Origin: Actinomycetota bacterium
GTDB taxonomy: Bacteria > Actinomycetota > Acidimicrobiia > Acidimicrobiales > Ilumatobacteraceae
Length of the DNA stretch: 45,552 bases
Reading direction: 5' to 3'
Assembly (NCBI GenBank): GCA_009703125.1
Contig: WLGS01000004.1
Location: 1 to 45,552, forward strand
The position numbers were made by a program, and so were the translations under genes. A model generated the notes under the pieces. That model was not told the origin of the DNA. It saw nothing but the letters and a program-made list of their open reading frames with translations, and did no database searches. This document shows positions 14,605-20,662 of the stretch, in pieces (position 1 is the stretch's first letter; every line of letters begins with the position of its first letter).

Positions 14605-14640
14605 CTTCAATAACTTTGACCTTTGAATAGAGGTACCTCC

Positions 14641-16431
14641 ATGGCTGCAACCACGAGCAACACACGTCTGAAACAGTGGGTCAACGACTGGGCAGAGATT
14701 CTCCAGCCCGATTCCATCTACTGGTGTGATGGGTCTAGTGAAGAGTACGACTCCCTGTGTCAATCACTTGTTGACGCTGGCACCTTCACCAAGCTTGATG
14801 AAGCAAAGCGTCCAAACAGTTACTGGGCACACTCTGATCCAGGCGACGTAGCGCGCGTGGAAGATCGCACCTTTATCTGTTCGACAGATAAAGACGATGC
14901 GGGCCCGAACAACAACTGGCGTGAACCTTCTGAGATGCGCGCCGAAATGAATTCTTTGTACGCAGGCGCGATGAAAGGTCGCACCATGTACGTGGTGCCG
15001 TTCTCCATGGGGCCATTGGGATCCCCTATCGCCCACATCGGCGTACAGCTCACCGACAGCGCATACGTTGCAGTCAGCATGCGCATCATGACCCGTATGG
15101 GTCAAAAGGCCCTCGATGTCTTGGGTGACAACGACTGGGTGCCATGTGTGCACTCGGTAGGTGACCCACTTGCTCCAGGCCAGACAAGTTCCGCATGGCC
15201 ATGCAACCCCGACAACAAATACATCGTGCACTTCCCTGAGACACGCGAGATTTGGTCCTTTGGTTCGGGCTACGGCGGCAATGCACTTCTTGGAAAGAAG
15301 TGTTTCGCCTTACGTATCGCATCTGTGATGGCACGCGATGCTGGCTGGCTCGCAGAACACATGTTGATTTTGAAGCTCACCAATCCAGAGGGCGCACACA
15401 AATACATCGCTGCGGCATTCCCTTCGGCATGCGGCAAAACAAACCTCGCCATGCTTGTTCCCACCATTCCAGGCTGGAAGGCCGAAACAATCGGTGACGA
15501 CATTTGCTGGATGAAGTTCGGCGAAGACGGTCGCCTCTACGCCATTAACCCTGAAGCTGGCTTCTTCGGTGTGGCACCTGGAACTGGCTATGACACCAAC
15601 GCCAACGCGATGGAGACATTGTGGGGCAACTGCTTGTTCACCAACACTGCTCTCACCTCTGATGGCGATGTGTGGTGGGAAGGTATGAGCGACACTGCAC
15701 CTGCACGTGCAACCGACTGGAAGGGCAATACCTGGACACCAGAGAGTGATTCTGTGTCTGCACACCCCAATGCTCGCTTCACAGCACCTGCATCACAGTG
15801 CCCATCAATGGCTCCTGAATGGGAAGATCCAGCCGGCGTTCCCATCTCGGCAATCATGTTCGGGGGACGTCGCCGCACAACAGTGCCTTTGGTGACAGAA
15901 GCATTTGATTGGGATCATGGTGTCTTCCTGGGAAGCATCATGGCTTCTGAGACCACTGCAGCCCAACAAGGTGCTGTGGGCAATCTTCGCTTTGACCCCA
16001 TGGCCATGCTCCCCTTCTGTGGCTACAACATGGCCGATTACTTCGGACACTGGCTCAAGATTGGTGCTGCCACCAAGTCAGAGAACTTGCCAAAGATTTT
16101 CTTTGTCAACTGGTTCCGTCGCGACGAAGACGGCCGCTTCTTGTGGCCAGGATTTGGCGAGAACAGCCGTGTTCTGAAGTGGATCTTTGATCGCATCGAT
16201 GGCAAGGCATCGGCTGAAAAGACTGCAATTGGCTACTTGCCAAATGCAGGCGATTTGGACACCAACGGTCTCGACATCAACGACAGCGATCTTGAAAAAC
16301 TGTTGTCAGTTGACGCATCTGGCTGGAAGGAAGCGATTCCACAGATTCGTGATCACTTCGCACAGTTCGGGCCCAAGTTGCCATCTGCTTTGGTAGACAA
16401 GTTAAATGAACTTGACAAGTCACTGGCATAA
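14641..16431 (+). CDS. pckG: Phosphoenolpyruvate carboxykinase (GTP)
   Basis: Interconverts oxaloacetate and phosphoenolpyruvate using GTP/GDP, the entry to gluconeogenesis or an anaplerotic route. It has 596 residues, normal for the GTP family. The P-loop with the hyper-reactive cysteine, [13 protein letters not shown], is at about residues 260-272. Other family segments are [22 protein letters not shown], the metal-binding region [20 protein letters not shown], and [23 protein letters not shown] at 14641 has AGAGG 7 bases upstream; residues encoded further upstream in frame are not family sequence. It ends 17 bases before a strong terminator. PckG and the fused Kgd at 29565 mark the central carbon metabolism of this organism. 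Confidence 0.97.
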
Positions 16432-16448
16432 ATCAGTTTCTTTTTAAG

Positions 16449-16490
16449 AATAAAAAATCCCCTGCCGAGCTCGGCAGGGGATTTTTTATT
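16449..16490. terminator. Bidirectional rho-independent terminator
   Basis: A perfect 42-base palindrome centred at 16469/16470: a GC-rich stem CCCCTGCCGAG/CTCGGCAGGGG flanked by A-run and T-run arms (AATAAAAAAT and ATTTTTTATT). Both strands therefore carry hairpin plus T-tract. It separates the convergent pckG (plus) and the surface-protein gene (minus) and would end both transcripts. The palindrome has essentially no loop, so the RNA hairpin would open the central bases. Confidence 0.93.
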
Positions 16491-16492
16491 TT

Positions 16493-19400
16493 CTACTTCT
16501 CTTCTTCGTCCTTGCGACGACGACGCAAGATTGCAGGAATGACAAGAGCAGCAATCACAGCCAAGCCCAACGGAATCCCCACCAGCAATACCAACGCAGA
16601 CGGCCCCGCGGAGTCTGCACCCACAAACACTGCAAGGGCAAACGTTAACTCTTCACGTTGTTGTGATTCACCTAGCAACACAACGGTGTGTCGTCCATCA
16701 ATCACAGAATCAGGCACCTCATAGGACGCCATCAAGTTTCCAAGTGCCGACACAGTGCTACGACCCAACAACACTGGATCTGAATACATGCGCACTTCCA
16801 CTTGTGATTCGGATCCAAACCCAGTGACTTCAATTTCTATTGAGTCCCCTTGGTCCATACGAATGCGGCCCTCAGAATCAAGTGGTGCACGACCACCTTC
16901 GCGTTGCACAGCAGAAATACGTGCACGCAATACTCCGGCTGCAATCACAAGTTGATTGTTCTCACGCGTGATGGTGGCCTCAATACGTTGACCATTCACC
17001 ACAAGTGCGCCACCACTATCGGCCACTTCTGGCACATCTACAGACGGCAAGGTTGTGGTGGTAGTGCTTGGTACCGGCAAGGTAGTGGTGGGGGCAACAG
17101 TTGTGGCTACACCTTGAGCCACAGGTGTCGGACCTGATGGTCCAGTACCCACAGGTGGCACCGTGGTGCCCGATGACGGCACAGTCGATTGAGTCGGCGC
17201 AACAGTGCCCGAAGGTGCAGTCGATGGCGTTGTGGTGTCTATGGTGACCGTTGATGCCTGTACAGCAGAAGTGGGACCAGTGTTTGAGGCTCCATCAGTC
17301 ACACTATTAGGCGCCAATCGCAGAATGACCGTTCCATCTGAAGTACACGTTGCAGTAATTGAAAACGATGTCCCCGATGATGTCGGTGCGGCAAATGTGC
17401 AGTTCGCGGTACCGAGATTTGAAAAATCTGCGTTTGTTAATCCACTAATGACTTCATCAAAGACAACTGCATATACGAGCGTGCGCGAACCCGCAGGTGA
17501 CGAAGGAGAAGTAACCGTTACTGAAGGGCTAGTCACATCAGCAGATGAAGTCGTAAATCTCACTCCGCCCGCTGCAGTGGGATCATGAAGTGGCGCATTA
17601 TTGCCGGCAATGTCTTTGACGACACCCGCAGAAATTGACAGACACTGCACTGTTGAATGTGCGAAGTTGTTCGGCGGATTCACCGTCACCGTGTCCCCAG
17701 AAACCGTCACAGCTGCCGACGTCGAAGAGATTGTTTGCTCAGTTGTAGGACATGTGGAACCACCAGATTTCACCAAGAAATCACCGATAGCCGCATAAAC
17801 ATCTTCGTTGTAGGTCAATTGAATGTTCGAGTTAACCGCAATACCTACTGCATCACGAGTGGGAGAAATAGCTGTTAAGGCTGGCGCTGTTGTATCAACA
17901 ACGATTGTGAGTGCTGCAGAATTAGCAGAGGTATTGCCATTGACATCGGTATGGGTCGCCACCACAGTCCATGTCCCCTGCGATAAGCCTGACATTGAGC
18001 AGGCATCAAGATATGTGGCCCCAGGTCGCGTACATGTCTTGTCTGCTAATCCGCTACGCGATGCGGTCACAGTAATAGTTCCACCGTTCTCGGCACCGCG
18101 AAAACGGAACTGTGGGTTCACCACCGATGTGATGTTGTCGGTATTAAAGAGGCCCGCATCTGATGCATCACTGAGATCTGGCGTGGTGGGCGGCGCAGGT
18201 GGAGTTACATCGGCAGCAGTGGTGAATTGATACCCCGATGATGAGGAAATCCCTGCGTAACCATTTCCTGCAATATCAGTAAATGCACCTTGATTAATGA
18301 GTACATACAACGCAGTTGATGTAGGGAGATCAACTGTGGGGTTCACCGTGACTGTGGCACCAGAGAACGTGACTTGAGAGGAACTGGCATCAATAGATGT
18401 GACTGTGCTGTTGTCAGATACCTTCTTGATGGTGACATGCTGCCCAGGACCGGGGCCGACATTTTCCGAAAAAGTTAATGTGATGTTCGTGGTGTATTCA
18501 ATTCCTGTCGCACCGTCAGAGGGACTCTGTTGTACCAAAGAGGGAGCGGTTGTATCTGGAGTATCGGTGGATGCGATTGTTCTAGATGCTCCACCGATAC
18601 TCGTATCGCCCACCGCAAGGAATTGACCAGCGCCAAAACCTAATCCGCGCCATTGCCCACTGCCTAAAGAAAGCCAATTAGTTGCACTCGAAAAAGACGT
18701 GCCGTTTACGGTGGTGACGAATCTGGTACTTGATCCAAAGAGAAATACACCATTGCCGAAACGAATACGATGAACATATTGAGGACTAATTCCCAATGAA
18801 GGATGAGTCACGGCACTCCATGAACTGCCCCAGTTCGTAGAACGATACAAATGGTTGGAACCATTGCCCGTAGTCATAATGGCCAAAAGCACACCATTGC
18901 CAAATGCAATGTCATTCAAGAATGTCGAGTTGCTGTTTGTCCAAGTAATGCCGTCAGACGATGTCAATGTGCGGTTGCCCACAAGAATGAATTGCCCGTT
19001 CGCAAAAACCACTGCGTTTGCTGCAACAAAAGTCTGAGGAAAGGAATTGATCTGTGGCAAAGTTTGAATCTGCCACGTTGCACCATTATCGGTAGATCGC
19101 AGAATTCGATTTGCGGTTTCGTTTCCACTAAGCATTCCGGAACTCACCGCAACGAGTACTCCGTTACCGTACGCCACATCATTCCAGTGGGCATCAGCAA
19201 CGGGAACATTGGTGGTGGGAACATTTGCCGCAGTCCACGTCATTCCGTCGTCTGAATATTGAATCTGTCTACCCGCGGTACAAAAAGTCGAACACAATGC
19301 GAAAAACCGATTGTTCACAAACTCAATATTGGAATACCGACCCGCGGTGACATTCGTCGTGCCAGCTACCCAGTCTTGGCCCCCATTGGTTGAATACACC

Positions 19401-19603
19401 GGAGTCGATCCCTCAACCTTGGCCCAGACACCCGCTCCATACGCAGTTGCGTAGTAGGTCGCATTGGCATTAGTGCCCGTCTTATTTTGAAATGTAGGCA
19501 CATACGAAGAGCCCACAACTTCGGATTCATAAACCAACTGTGCCGTCACAGATCCTCCAGCAATCAAAAGAAGAGCGCCAAGAGGTCCCAGAAATCGTTT
19601 CAT
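16493..19603 (-). CDS. Secreted, membrane-anchored surface protein with propeller-like and Ig-like domains
   Basis: A 1036-residue exported protein of unknown function. It opens with a signal peptide (MKRFLGPLGALLLIAGGSVTA). Residues about 40-340 carry repeated Asp-box-like SxDxGxTW motifs (SDDGMTW, STDNGATW, SSDGITW, STNWGSSW), typical of sialidase-like beta-propellers. Two Big_5-type Ig-like domains follow, each opening DTTAPxL...SP (about 345-455 and 565-670) and ending DIAGN; a further beta-sandwich is at about 690-785. Then comes a Thr/Pro/Ser-rich linker, another beta domain, one transmembrane helix (about 1000-1025) and a basic tail (RRRRKDEEEK). There is no LPXTG motif. This suggests an extracellular stalk held in the membrane, perhaps for adhesion or glycan binding. 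The start codon lies inside a palindrome and 7 bases after TAGATT. Confidence 0.85.
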   Translation of the reverse strand: MKRFLGPLGALLLIAGGSVTAQLVYESEVVGSSYVPTFQNKTGTNANATYYATAYGAGVWAKVEGSTPVYSTNGGQDWVAGTTNVTAGRYSNIEFVNNRFFALCSTFCTAGRQIQYSDDGMTWTAANVPTTNVPVADAHWNDVAYGNGVLVAVSSGMLSGNETANRILRSTDNGATWQIQTLPQINSFPQTFVAANAVVFANGQFILVGNRTLTSSDGITWTNSNSTFLNDIAFGNGVLLAIMTTGNGSNHLYRSTNWGSSWSAVTHPSLGISPQYVHRIRFGNGVFLFGSSTRFVTTVNGTSFSSATNWLSLGSGQWRGLGFGAGQFLAVGDTSIGGASRTIASTDTPDTTAPSLVQQSPSDGATGIEYTTNITLTFSENVGPGPGQHVTIKKVSDNSTVTSIDASSSQVTFSGATVTVNPTVDLPTSTALYVLINQGAFTDIAGNGYAGISSSSGYQFTTAADVTPPAPPTTPDLSDASDAGLFNTDNITSVVNPQFRFRGAENGGTITVTASRSGLADKTCTRPGATYLDACSMSGLSQGTWTVVATHTDVNGNTSANSAALTIVVDTTAPALTAISPTRDAVGIAVNSNIQLTYNEDVYAAIGDFLVKSGGSTCPTTEQTISSTSAAVTVSGDTVTVNPPNNFAHSTVQCLSISAGVVKDIAGNNAPLHDPTAAGGVRFTTSSADVTSPSVTVTSPSSPAGSRTLVYAVVFDEVISGLTNADFSNLGTANCTFAAPTSSGTSFSITATCTSDGTVILRLAPNSVTDGASNTGPTSAVQASTVTIDTTTPSTAPSGTVAPTQSTVPSSGTTVPPVGTGPSGPTPVAQGVATTVAPTTTLPVPSTTTTTLPSVDVPEVADSGGALVVNGQRIEATITRENNQLVIAAGVLRARISAVQREGGRAPLDSEGRIRMDQGDSIEIEVTGFGSESQVEVRMYSDPVLLGRSTVSALGNLMASYEVPDSVIDGRHTVVLLGESQQREELTFALAVFVGADSAGPSALVLLVGIPLGLAVIAALVIPAILRRRRKDEEEK

Positions 19604-19640
19604 TGGAGAAAATCTACTTCATTTGTAGATTTTCTTCAAT
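19602..19640. promoter_or_regulatory. 39-base palindrome over the surface-protein start
   Basis: Arms of 16 bases (19602-19617 and 19625-19640) match with one G/T mismatch around a 7-base spacer. The minus-strand arm contains the TAGATT -10-like box (19611-19616) and the ATG of the surface protein; the plus-strand arm carries the mirror-image TAGATT at 19626-19631. It is AT-rich with no proper U-tail, so an operator or translation-blocking hairpin fits better than a terminator for the upstream membrane-protein gene. Confidence 0.55.
19611..19616 (-). promoter_or_regulatory. Putative leaderless -10 box of the surface-protein gene
   Basis: Minus-strand TAGATT, then TTCTCCA (7 bases), then ATG at 19603. 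There is no Shine-Dalgarno sequence; TTCTCC is pyrimidine-rich. The box lies inside the palindrome at 19602-19640, so a protein bound there would block it. Confidence 0.5.
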
Positions 19641-19666
19641 TGAATCGTGGTCTAGCCCCGATGAAT

Positions 19667-20065
19667 TTAGGCGGACTGCCCCACCAGCATTGCGCGAATG
19701 CCGAGGCCCATGAGGAAGAGACCACCAAAGCCATACAACAAATACACGCGACCCTTGAGTTGGTGACGGTACGAGTAAATGATGGCTACTGCCATAACGG
19801 AGACAAAACCATAGAAAGCATGAAATGCAGGAAATTCCATTTTTTCTTTGTTCACAATGGCAACACCGATGGCCACTTGCACAAACACGGTGAACTGAGC
19901 TGCACCTGTGTACCACCACAAAGCACGAGTGCGAAGTGGCTGAATCTTGTGCGCAGCCAAGGCCCACACACCAGCGAATCCGTTGGCAATAATCGTGATC
20001 CACGCCCACGAAAGATGGGAGTCATACAACGAAGATGTCGTATCAAGTACCGCAGAGGAAATCAC
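19667..20065 (-). CDS. Small integral membrane protein of unknown function
   Basis: A 132-residue protein with four predicted transmembrane helices (about residues 18-38, 48-70, 80-100 and 108-126) and short, basic loops. Aromatic and charged motifs (WAWITIIANGFAGVWALAAH, LRTRALWWYTGAAQFTVFVQ, FPAFHAFYGFV) include His in or near membrane segments, which could bind haem or metal, but no family could be named. The GTG start at 20063-20065 lies 6 bases after TAGATT on the minus strand, a leaderless arrangement. It lies 33 bases downstream of the phosphatase gene and 63 bases upstream of the surface-protein start. Confidence 0.8.
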   Translation of the reverse strand: MISSAVLDTTSSLYDSHLSWAWITIIANGFAGVWALAAHKIQPLRTRALWWYTGAAQFTVFVQVAIGVAIVNKEKMEFPAFHAFYGFVSVMAVAIIYSYRHQLKGRVYLLYGFGGLFLMGLGIRAMLVGQSA

Positions 20066-20071
20066 GCTCTA

Positions 20072-20077
20072 AATCTA
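20072..20077 (-). promoter_or_regulatory. Putative leaderless -10 box of the small membrane protein
   Basis: Minus-strand TAGATT followed by TAGAGC (6 bases) and GTG at 20065. It uses the same hexamer as the surface-protein gene 460 bases downstream, so the two genes may respond alike. Confidence 0.48.
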
Positions 20078-20098
20078 GTCGCCAAAGTTCAATGTTGA

Positions 20099-20662
20099 CT
20101 AACGGATCAGCGTGTCAGCTTCCCCACCCATTTCTATAAGAAATAGACCTTCGTCACTCACATCAAAAACCGACACCGAACAGTTATCTAGGTGCCCGAT
20201 TACCACACGATCATCATCGGTAGCTGCGCCAATCACTGCGTTGATAGCAATGAAATGACTAAAGATCACAGTGTCCGTGCGTAACGATTGCACAAGACGA
20301 GCAACATCGTCGCGATAGGTGCGATAATGCGCCCCGGACGTCTGGGCCACTTGTTCCCACGTTCCCGACATCGCCTCACGTAGCCACTCCACTCGATTTT
20401 CCAGTTCGTAGCCCTCTGGCGAGGGAATCTCTCCCACCAAAGATTCAATACGCACATCCTGCTTCCATGCGGTAGCCAAAGGGAATGCTGTCTGTTGGCA
20501 ACGCAGAAGTGGGCTCGACAAGACAGGCAATGGACCCAACGAGGACAACCGCGTTGCCACCTGCAGTGCTTGTGCACGACCCAATTCGTCAAGACCTGGA
20601 TCGGGATCAACATTCCAGCCTGCAGCGGCGCGACCATGTCGCACCATGTAAATGCGGCTCAT
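20099..20662 (-). CDS. Histidine phosphatase superfamily protein
   Basis: A 187-residue protein of the phosphoglycerate-mutase-like branch. The catalytic RHG is at residues 8-10 (YMVRHGRAAAGW), a conserved Arg occurs in LSSPLLRCQQTA, and the second His is in VIFSHFIAINAVIG, where most relatives have HxG; here the residue after His is Phe. The protein would transfer phosphate through His9. The substrate is unknown. It overlaps the PIG-L deacetylase gene by 4 bases (ATGA), and both follow a CoA-racemase gene, so the three form a small operon. Confidence 0.88.
   Translation of the reverse strand: MSRIYMVRHGRAAAGWNVDPDPGLDELGRAQALQVATRLSSLGPLPVLSSPLLRCQQTAFPLATAWKQDVRIESLVGEIPSPEGYELENRVEWLREAMSGTWEQVAQTSGAHYRTYRDDVARLVQSLRTDTVIFSHFIAINAVIGAATDDDRVVIGHLDNCSVSVFDVSDEGLFLIEMGGEADTLIR

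Follow-up and report, generated by a model that had tools for sequence, protein, structure and literature searches.

What is a 39-nt palindrome doing across the start of a gene for a large surface protein? The question is raised by one locus of an actinobacterium of the family Ilumatobacteraceae, which we analyzed within a contig stretch of 45,552 nt (referred to here as the window). The palindrome covers both a promoter-like element and the beginning of the reading frame, and it could act as DNA, as RNA, or not at all. The features on which the argument turns are as follows.

14623 to 16431, plus strand: PEPCK (GTP) gene, convergent with the surface-protein gene; other border of a variable gene slot
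16447 to 16492, no strand assigned: long, terminator-like inverted repeat in the gap that separates the surface-protein and PEPCK genes; contrast case
16493 to 19603, minus strand: surface-protein gene, 1036 aa; signal-peptide-like start, Big_5 and Big_13 Ig-like domains
19602 to 19640, minus strand: palindrome, proposed dyad operator; 16-nt arms with one mismatch and a 7-nt loop, 39 nt in all
19611 to 19616, minus strand: -10-like hexamer (TAGATT) within the promoter-proximal arm; it ends 7 nt before the start codon
19634 to 19639, minus strand: weak -35-like TTGAAG in the distal arm, 17 nt from the -10
19667 to 20065, minus strand: upstream same-strand gene, 132 aa, whose stop codon ends 26 nt before the palindrome

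Structure of the palindrome and the probable promoter within it

The two arms (19602 to 19617 and 19625 to 19640) are complementary at 15 of 16 pairs (94%), are separated by 7 nt, and include a perfect core of 11 pairs. A preliminary description of the sequence had claimed a palindrome with these dimensions, and both an inverted-repeat search and shuffling bore this out: none of 5,000 dinucleotide shuffles of the surrounding 75 nt reached its local score. With perfect arms of at least 9 nt and loops of 3 to 10 nt, the window contains 4 inverted repeats (shuffle mean, 1.4), and with arms of at least 14 nt and one mismatch allowed it contains 3 (shuffle mean, 0.1). When perfect arms of at least 11 nt were required at the same loop lengths, the whole window returned only the palindrome and the terminator-like repeat, here delimited as 16449 to 16490 (mean of 0.0 in 20 shuffles). 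Over 253,283 bases of the organism's own genome (G000), window included, 8 inverted repeats have perfect arms of at least 10 nt and loops of 3 to 10 nt; palindromes of such quality are rare in this genome, not unique.

The surface-protein gene reads on the minus strand, a small correction to the preliminary description. Its product further comprises a hydrophobic N terminus, a Thr/Pro-rich linker, and a C-terminal domain common in the genus, and its tail is a hydrophobic segment followed by RRRRKDEEEK at the very end. The next candidate start lies 12 codons in and would remove most of the hydrophobic stretch. Because the frame is open for only five codons upstream, to a TGA in the palindrome loop, the ATG is the only sensible start and is well supported. 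The ATG had been placed on one arm of the palindrome; its A and T (19603 and 19602) do lie inside, while its G (19601) falls just outside.

Read on the minus strand, one arm contains TAGATT (19616 to 19611) and the other a mirror TAGATT, as had been reported. To judge the spacing of this element, we used a promoter-proximal gene set from the own genome, consisting of open reading frames (ORFs) that encode at least 150 aa and whose 50 nt of upstream sequence are free of another ORF of at least that size, each taken at its first start codon. In 18 of these 96 genes, the start codon follows the end of a TANNNT by 6 or 7 nt, compared with 0 to 2 of the 96 at each other distance from 0 to 34, and Shine-Dalgarno-like stretches precede just 7 of the 96. 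Given this peak and the few Shine-Dalgarno-like starts, the -10 in the arm sits where a leaderless promoter should be. Since TAGATT ends 7 nt before the ATG and no Shine-Dalgarno sequence lies upstream, the surface-protein promoter is probably leaderless, lying inside the palindrome. The mirror element (TAGATT in the window and TAGAAT in G020, the genome of a second species discussed below) is not followed at leaderless distance by any start codon on the opposite strand, and a bidirectional promoter was rejected as a candidate.

In published descriptions, leaderless genes of Actinobacteria carry TANNNT about 12 bp before the start codon and make up about a fifth of genes, and no conserved -35 was found for leaderless promoters of M. 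tuberculosis (PMC3160421, PMC3898074). The pattern in the own genome matches the published one (PMC3160421, PMC3898074). A palindrome is no part of that published pattern; the window promoter has one over its -10. A strict promoter scan around the palindrome reported no promoter, and no -35-like hexamer occurs at the corresponding place in G020. A -35-like element that is weak and not conserved would suit an activator site, where a dyad-bound regulator would assist polymerase in using a promoter whose -35 is poor, and many promoters of the surface-protein family carry another motif upstream of the -10. MerR-type activator sites lie between the promoter hexamers. Here, however, the dyad covers the -10, with its axis near -18, where binding normally occludes polymerase, and we regard activation as very unlikely.

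Conservation of the palindrome in a variable gene slot

The interval between the 132-aa gene, which is present in 31 of 32 genomes of the genus, and the PEPCK gene is a variable gene slot (16432 to 19666 in the window; loci L062 to L093). Both borders were seen in 29 of 33 loci examined; in 21 of these the gap is at most 72 nt, and in 8 it is occupied by a gene. Half of the occupied slots, those of the window and of genomes G020, G019, and G007, contain large surface-type proteins. Genome G017 also holds a surface-type counterpart, PEPCK not being on its contig. In L062, L063, and L069, the slot contains an opposite-strand ORF of 364 to 399 aa with a hydrophobic N terminus.

The four counterparts were found by a protein search of 61 genomes and by synteny through the upstream gene; a contig scan with the whole surface protein as the query confirmed no relative. 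Parts of the surface protein were matched in 26 of the 61 genomes (own included; E of ≤1e-10), mostly in its C-terminal part. In the G019 counterpart the C-terminal domain is missing, and similarity is confined to the middle of the protein. Within the own genome, a segment at G000:C1:61297-61887 (in L132) has 32% similarity to the C-terminal part and lies inside a 6930-aa open frame, that is, a giant protein in a 1.9-Mb genome.

Lack of conservation in relatives that keep the gene had been named in the preliminary description among the grounds for refuting its proposal, and the outcome was divided: the palindrome directly precedes the ATG in one of the four syntenic counterparts (G020) and is absent from the other three (G017, G007, and G019). 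The core TCTAC-N7-GTAGA is missing from the 60 nt ahead of the chosen start in 39 of the 41 members, window counted, of the family defined by the C-terminal domain.

In G020, the palindrome stands at the same place with the same loop length, and a TAGAAT ends 6 nt before the ATG. A second contig end of G020 shows the same palindrome as far as the contig reaches. A five-way alignment of upstream regions held little outside the two palindromes, and MAFFT left their distal arms out of register; the window and G020 were compared in pairwise register instead. The inner 11-nt arms are identical at 10 of 11 positions on each side (20 of 22), compared with 2 of 7 in the loop, 1 of 5 and 2 of 5 in the outer five bases, and 4 of 26 in the ungapped upstream flank, of which the first 9 positions still belong to the upstream gene in G020 and the rest match at 4 of 17. 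The two inner-arm differences are partners, representing both sides of one pair. Of the 16 pairs, 11 are unvaried, 3 have both bases changed but remain paired (in G020, the outermost is G-U), and 2 are paired in a single species only. The distal arm, superfluous for a bare -10, is conserved as well as the proximal arm.

The paired-change count alone is suggestive, not decisive: it comes from two sequences only and was reached by 72 of 500 shuffles, and slid controls favor the structure partly because the structure was drawn from these same sequences. We consider the contrast between the arms and the loop and flanks to be the stronger argument. The surface protein and its G020 counterpart match only over window residues 658 to 1034, at 41 to 44%; the arms, therefore, have not been kept merely through recent copying. 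The first 657 residues had no match to the G020 protein in either protein comparison.

These comparisons also bear on whether the palindrome could be a chance or neutral AT-rich symmetry. Promoter DNA is AT-rich, and the palindrome is missing from most relatives, with the strict core matched within 3 mismatches in 4 of the 32 genomes of the genus compared with 3 for a reversed control. Such an origin is nevertheless extremely improbable in our estimation, considering that 0 of 5,000 shuffles reach the score in either species, that the arms were kept while the loop and flanks diverged, and that position and loop length are the same in both species. The palindrome is real and probably a functional control site, ordinary in kind.

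Operator, hairpin, or terminator

Our preferred reading, which we hold to be reasonably probable, treats the palindrome as a dyad operator that works on DNA and overlies a leaderless promoter. In this model, TAGATT (19616 to 19611, minus strand) would be recognized by RNA polymerase and transcription would begin with the first base of the ATG, yielding a leaderless mRNA. A putative dimeric regulator would bind the arms GAAAATCTAC and GTAGATTTTC, which are spaced about 17 bp center to center. Once bound, with the dyad axis near -18, the dimer would overlie everything from the -35 region through the spacer and -10 to the start; repression of this single surface-protein gene would be its most likely effect, presumably in response to a signal. 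A near-perfect inverted repeat overlapping the -10 and the start is the arrangement found here, and a repressor dimer is its simplest account. Direct blocking of transcription by a dimeric repressor had been proposed in the preliminary description, and the dyad over the -10 and start, kept in G020 by paired changes, is consistent with that proposal; that the surface protein is "switchable" is something we, likewise, only infer.

The same symmetry could act in RNA, and it had been suggested that the start codon would be buried in a hairpin in RNA read through from the upstream gene. Read-through transcripts from the 132-aa gene would then fold, leaving the start region poorly accessible, and protein would be made only from the gene's own leaderless mRNA. 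No terminator was reported in the 26 nt between the end of that same-strand gene and the palindrome, and the paired changes fit RNA as well as DNA. The predicted folds (-12.3 kcal/mol in the window and -20.0 kcal/mol in G020) were matched in stability by 0 of 200 shuffles, and over 111 nt of the window the z score is -2.97 (1 of 200 shuffles). What makes burial of the start codon the weaker account, possible but in our view unlikely, is the position of the hairpin: the AUG lies at the foot of the stem, with the first two bases in the weak outer part in the window and only the A in the longest perfect stem in G020, and there is no upstream Shine-Dalgarno sequence to hide. Moreover, the -10 and the genome-wide leaderless pattern put the hairpin outside the main mRNA, which would start without it. 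A search for known RNA families gave 0 Rfam matches at the gathering score in the window.

A hairpin at this position might instead terminate or process the transcript of the 132-aa gene, insulating it from the surface-protein gene. It follows the stop codon of that gene by 26 nt in the window and by 17 to 19 nt in G020, and its arms contain an A-run and a T-run. An intrinsic terminator has a GC-containing stem with a T-run after it, whereas here the U-run lies inside the stem and is followed by CUCC, leaving no U-tail. A terminator scan of 19000 to 20400 did not report the palindrome, and the hairpins seen by eye after the same gene in five relatives (L064, L075, L077, L079, and L081) are GC-rich with T-tails. 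We accordingly rate insulation of the upstream gene as quite improbable.

The arm search of the genome proposed in the preliminary description gave no second copy, the strict core having no other match in the own genome within 3 mismatches. Among the 32 genomes of the genus, only the own genome and G020 contain the strict core without mismatch; within 2 mismatches, it was matched in 3 of 397 sampled genomes of the order, a sample from which G020 was absent. Viral contigs gave 0 matches. In a collection of 84,980 species, GAAAWTCTAC-N7-GTAGAWTTTC occurs in nine stretches, one being the G020 contig at this position; the other eight stretches with the strict core belong to unrelated groups. A looser, shorter core was found at 8 places in the own genome, compared with 5 for the control, and at 7 places in G020, compared with 3, with 2 of the 7 being the palindrome site itself. 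As the looser patterns occur near the control rate, no regulon is seen in these searches. Genome G308, from another genus of the order, has three copies of GAAAATCGAC-N7-GTCGATTTTC (L106, L107, and L108, on contigs C2, C5, and C7), which share the form of the window palindrome and differ from it in both bases of one pair. No transcription-factor family was matched among the 18 window proteins, a subset of the window ORFs, that were scanned against Pfam. TetR_N, counted alone among regulator families, has 23 matches in the own genome and 18 in G020, too many to single out a binder.

Leaderless genes with operators of this kind have precedents. In Rhodobacter sphaeroides, the inverted repeat TAATAGAC-n6-GTCTATTA, bound by the TetR family protein AcuR, overlaps the promoter of the leaderless acuR-acuI-dddL operon, whose mRNA begins at the ATG; without acrylate AcuR acts as a repressor, and a co-inducer relieves the repression (PMC3017554). 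The likeness is an inverted repeat over the promoter of a leaderless transcript, a transcript that we infer for the window. The acuR operon includes its own repressor gene, and its operator was probed by mutation, whereas the window has no adjoining regulator gene, its arms differ, its loop is 7 nt rather than n6, and its target is a surface protein (PMC3017554). An AcuR-type self-controlled operon was set aside as a candidate, given that the controlled gene encodes a surface protein, that none of the 18 scanned window proteins belongs to a transcription-factor family, and that no second site occurs in the genome within 3 mismatches. The same source names Tn1721 tetR and lambda cI among leaderless mRNAs (PMC3017554). 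These two genes encode repressors, unlike the window gene, which encodes a surface protein. Operators of Tn1721 tetR and lambda cI overlap the promoter.

Possible control elements of the paralogous surface proteins

Many promoters of the paralogous surface-protein family, whose genes share the C-terminal domain of the window gene, carry a different short dyad, AGTC-N3-GACT, shortly before the start. The family comprised 46 matches, reduced to 41 by removing repeats that share the last 200 bases. AGTCnnnG[A/T]CT occurs within 60 nt before the start in 13 of the 41 members, compared with an expectation of 0.05 based on 205,560 bases of the own genome, and G[A/T]CTGTT precedes the start in 14 of 41 (0.17 expected); family members are related, and these counts are not independent. 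In 11 of the 13, the first match lies at -33 to -22. By comparison, either motif was found in 2 of 195 ORFs of the own genome. Examples of AGTCnnnG[A/T]CT(GTT) are L030, L031, L012, L007, L008, L147, L016, and L010. Start codons of family members were chosen by a score that favors leaderless spacing, and a few of them, such as those of L015, L017, L134, and L144, are doubtful; for this reason, the family start spacings were not used as leaderless evidence.

Across the genus, AGTCnnnGACTGTT occurs at 26 distinct places (27 rows), of which eight directly precede secreted-type ORFs, mostly family members, three precede an ORF starting MGTVRRE, and two precede another ORF, which we take to resemble ribosomal protein L21. 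AGTC-N3-GACTGTT shows no genome-wide excess and is rarer than its reverse (27 rows versus 50); its signal lies only in its place before family genes. This suggests that AGTCnnnG[A/T]CT is a control element shared by paralogs, with a possible common regulator of surface display. The motif is absent before the start of both the window gene and its G020 counterpart, which have TCTAC-N7-GTAGA instead. A family-wide dyad AACAGT-N5-ACTGTT was dropped after it was found in 4 of 32 genomes, compared with 11 of 32 for the reversed control.

Two other surface-protein genes are preceded by inverted or repeated elements. In L135 (G020:C221), repeated TGCGCA boxes extend over the -10 up to the ATG of another surface-protein gene (the frame opens at about 100), making this a second operator-like promoter (a fraction of 0.005 of 200 plain shuffles, which keep base composition only). 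In the own genome, L130 (G000:C143) has a perfect 12-bp inverted repeat with an 8-nt loop at 1339 to 1370, which ends some 50 nt upstream of the start chosen for another surface-protein family member.

It is conceivable, though rather doubtful, that the variable slot exchanges its gene while a conserved cis-acting switch in front of it persists. Surface proteins whose N-terminal parts are unrelated would then share one symmetric promoter-operator in the window and in G020, and the switch and not the protein would be the conserved unit, possibly combining a DNA operator with a read-through hairpin that forces leaderless-only expression. If the operator reading is true, an actinobacterium with a small genome (1.93 Mb, 94% complete) would keep a dedicated switch for just one cell-surface protein; this may point to phage- or environment-driven control of surface display. 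The palindrome would then also be a well-defined example, open to experiment, of a leaderless promoter overlaid by a dyad operator, in a group that has received little study.
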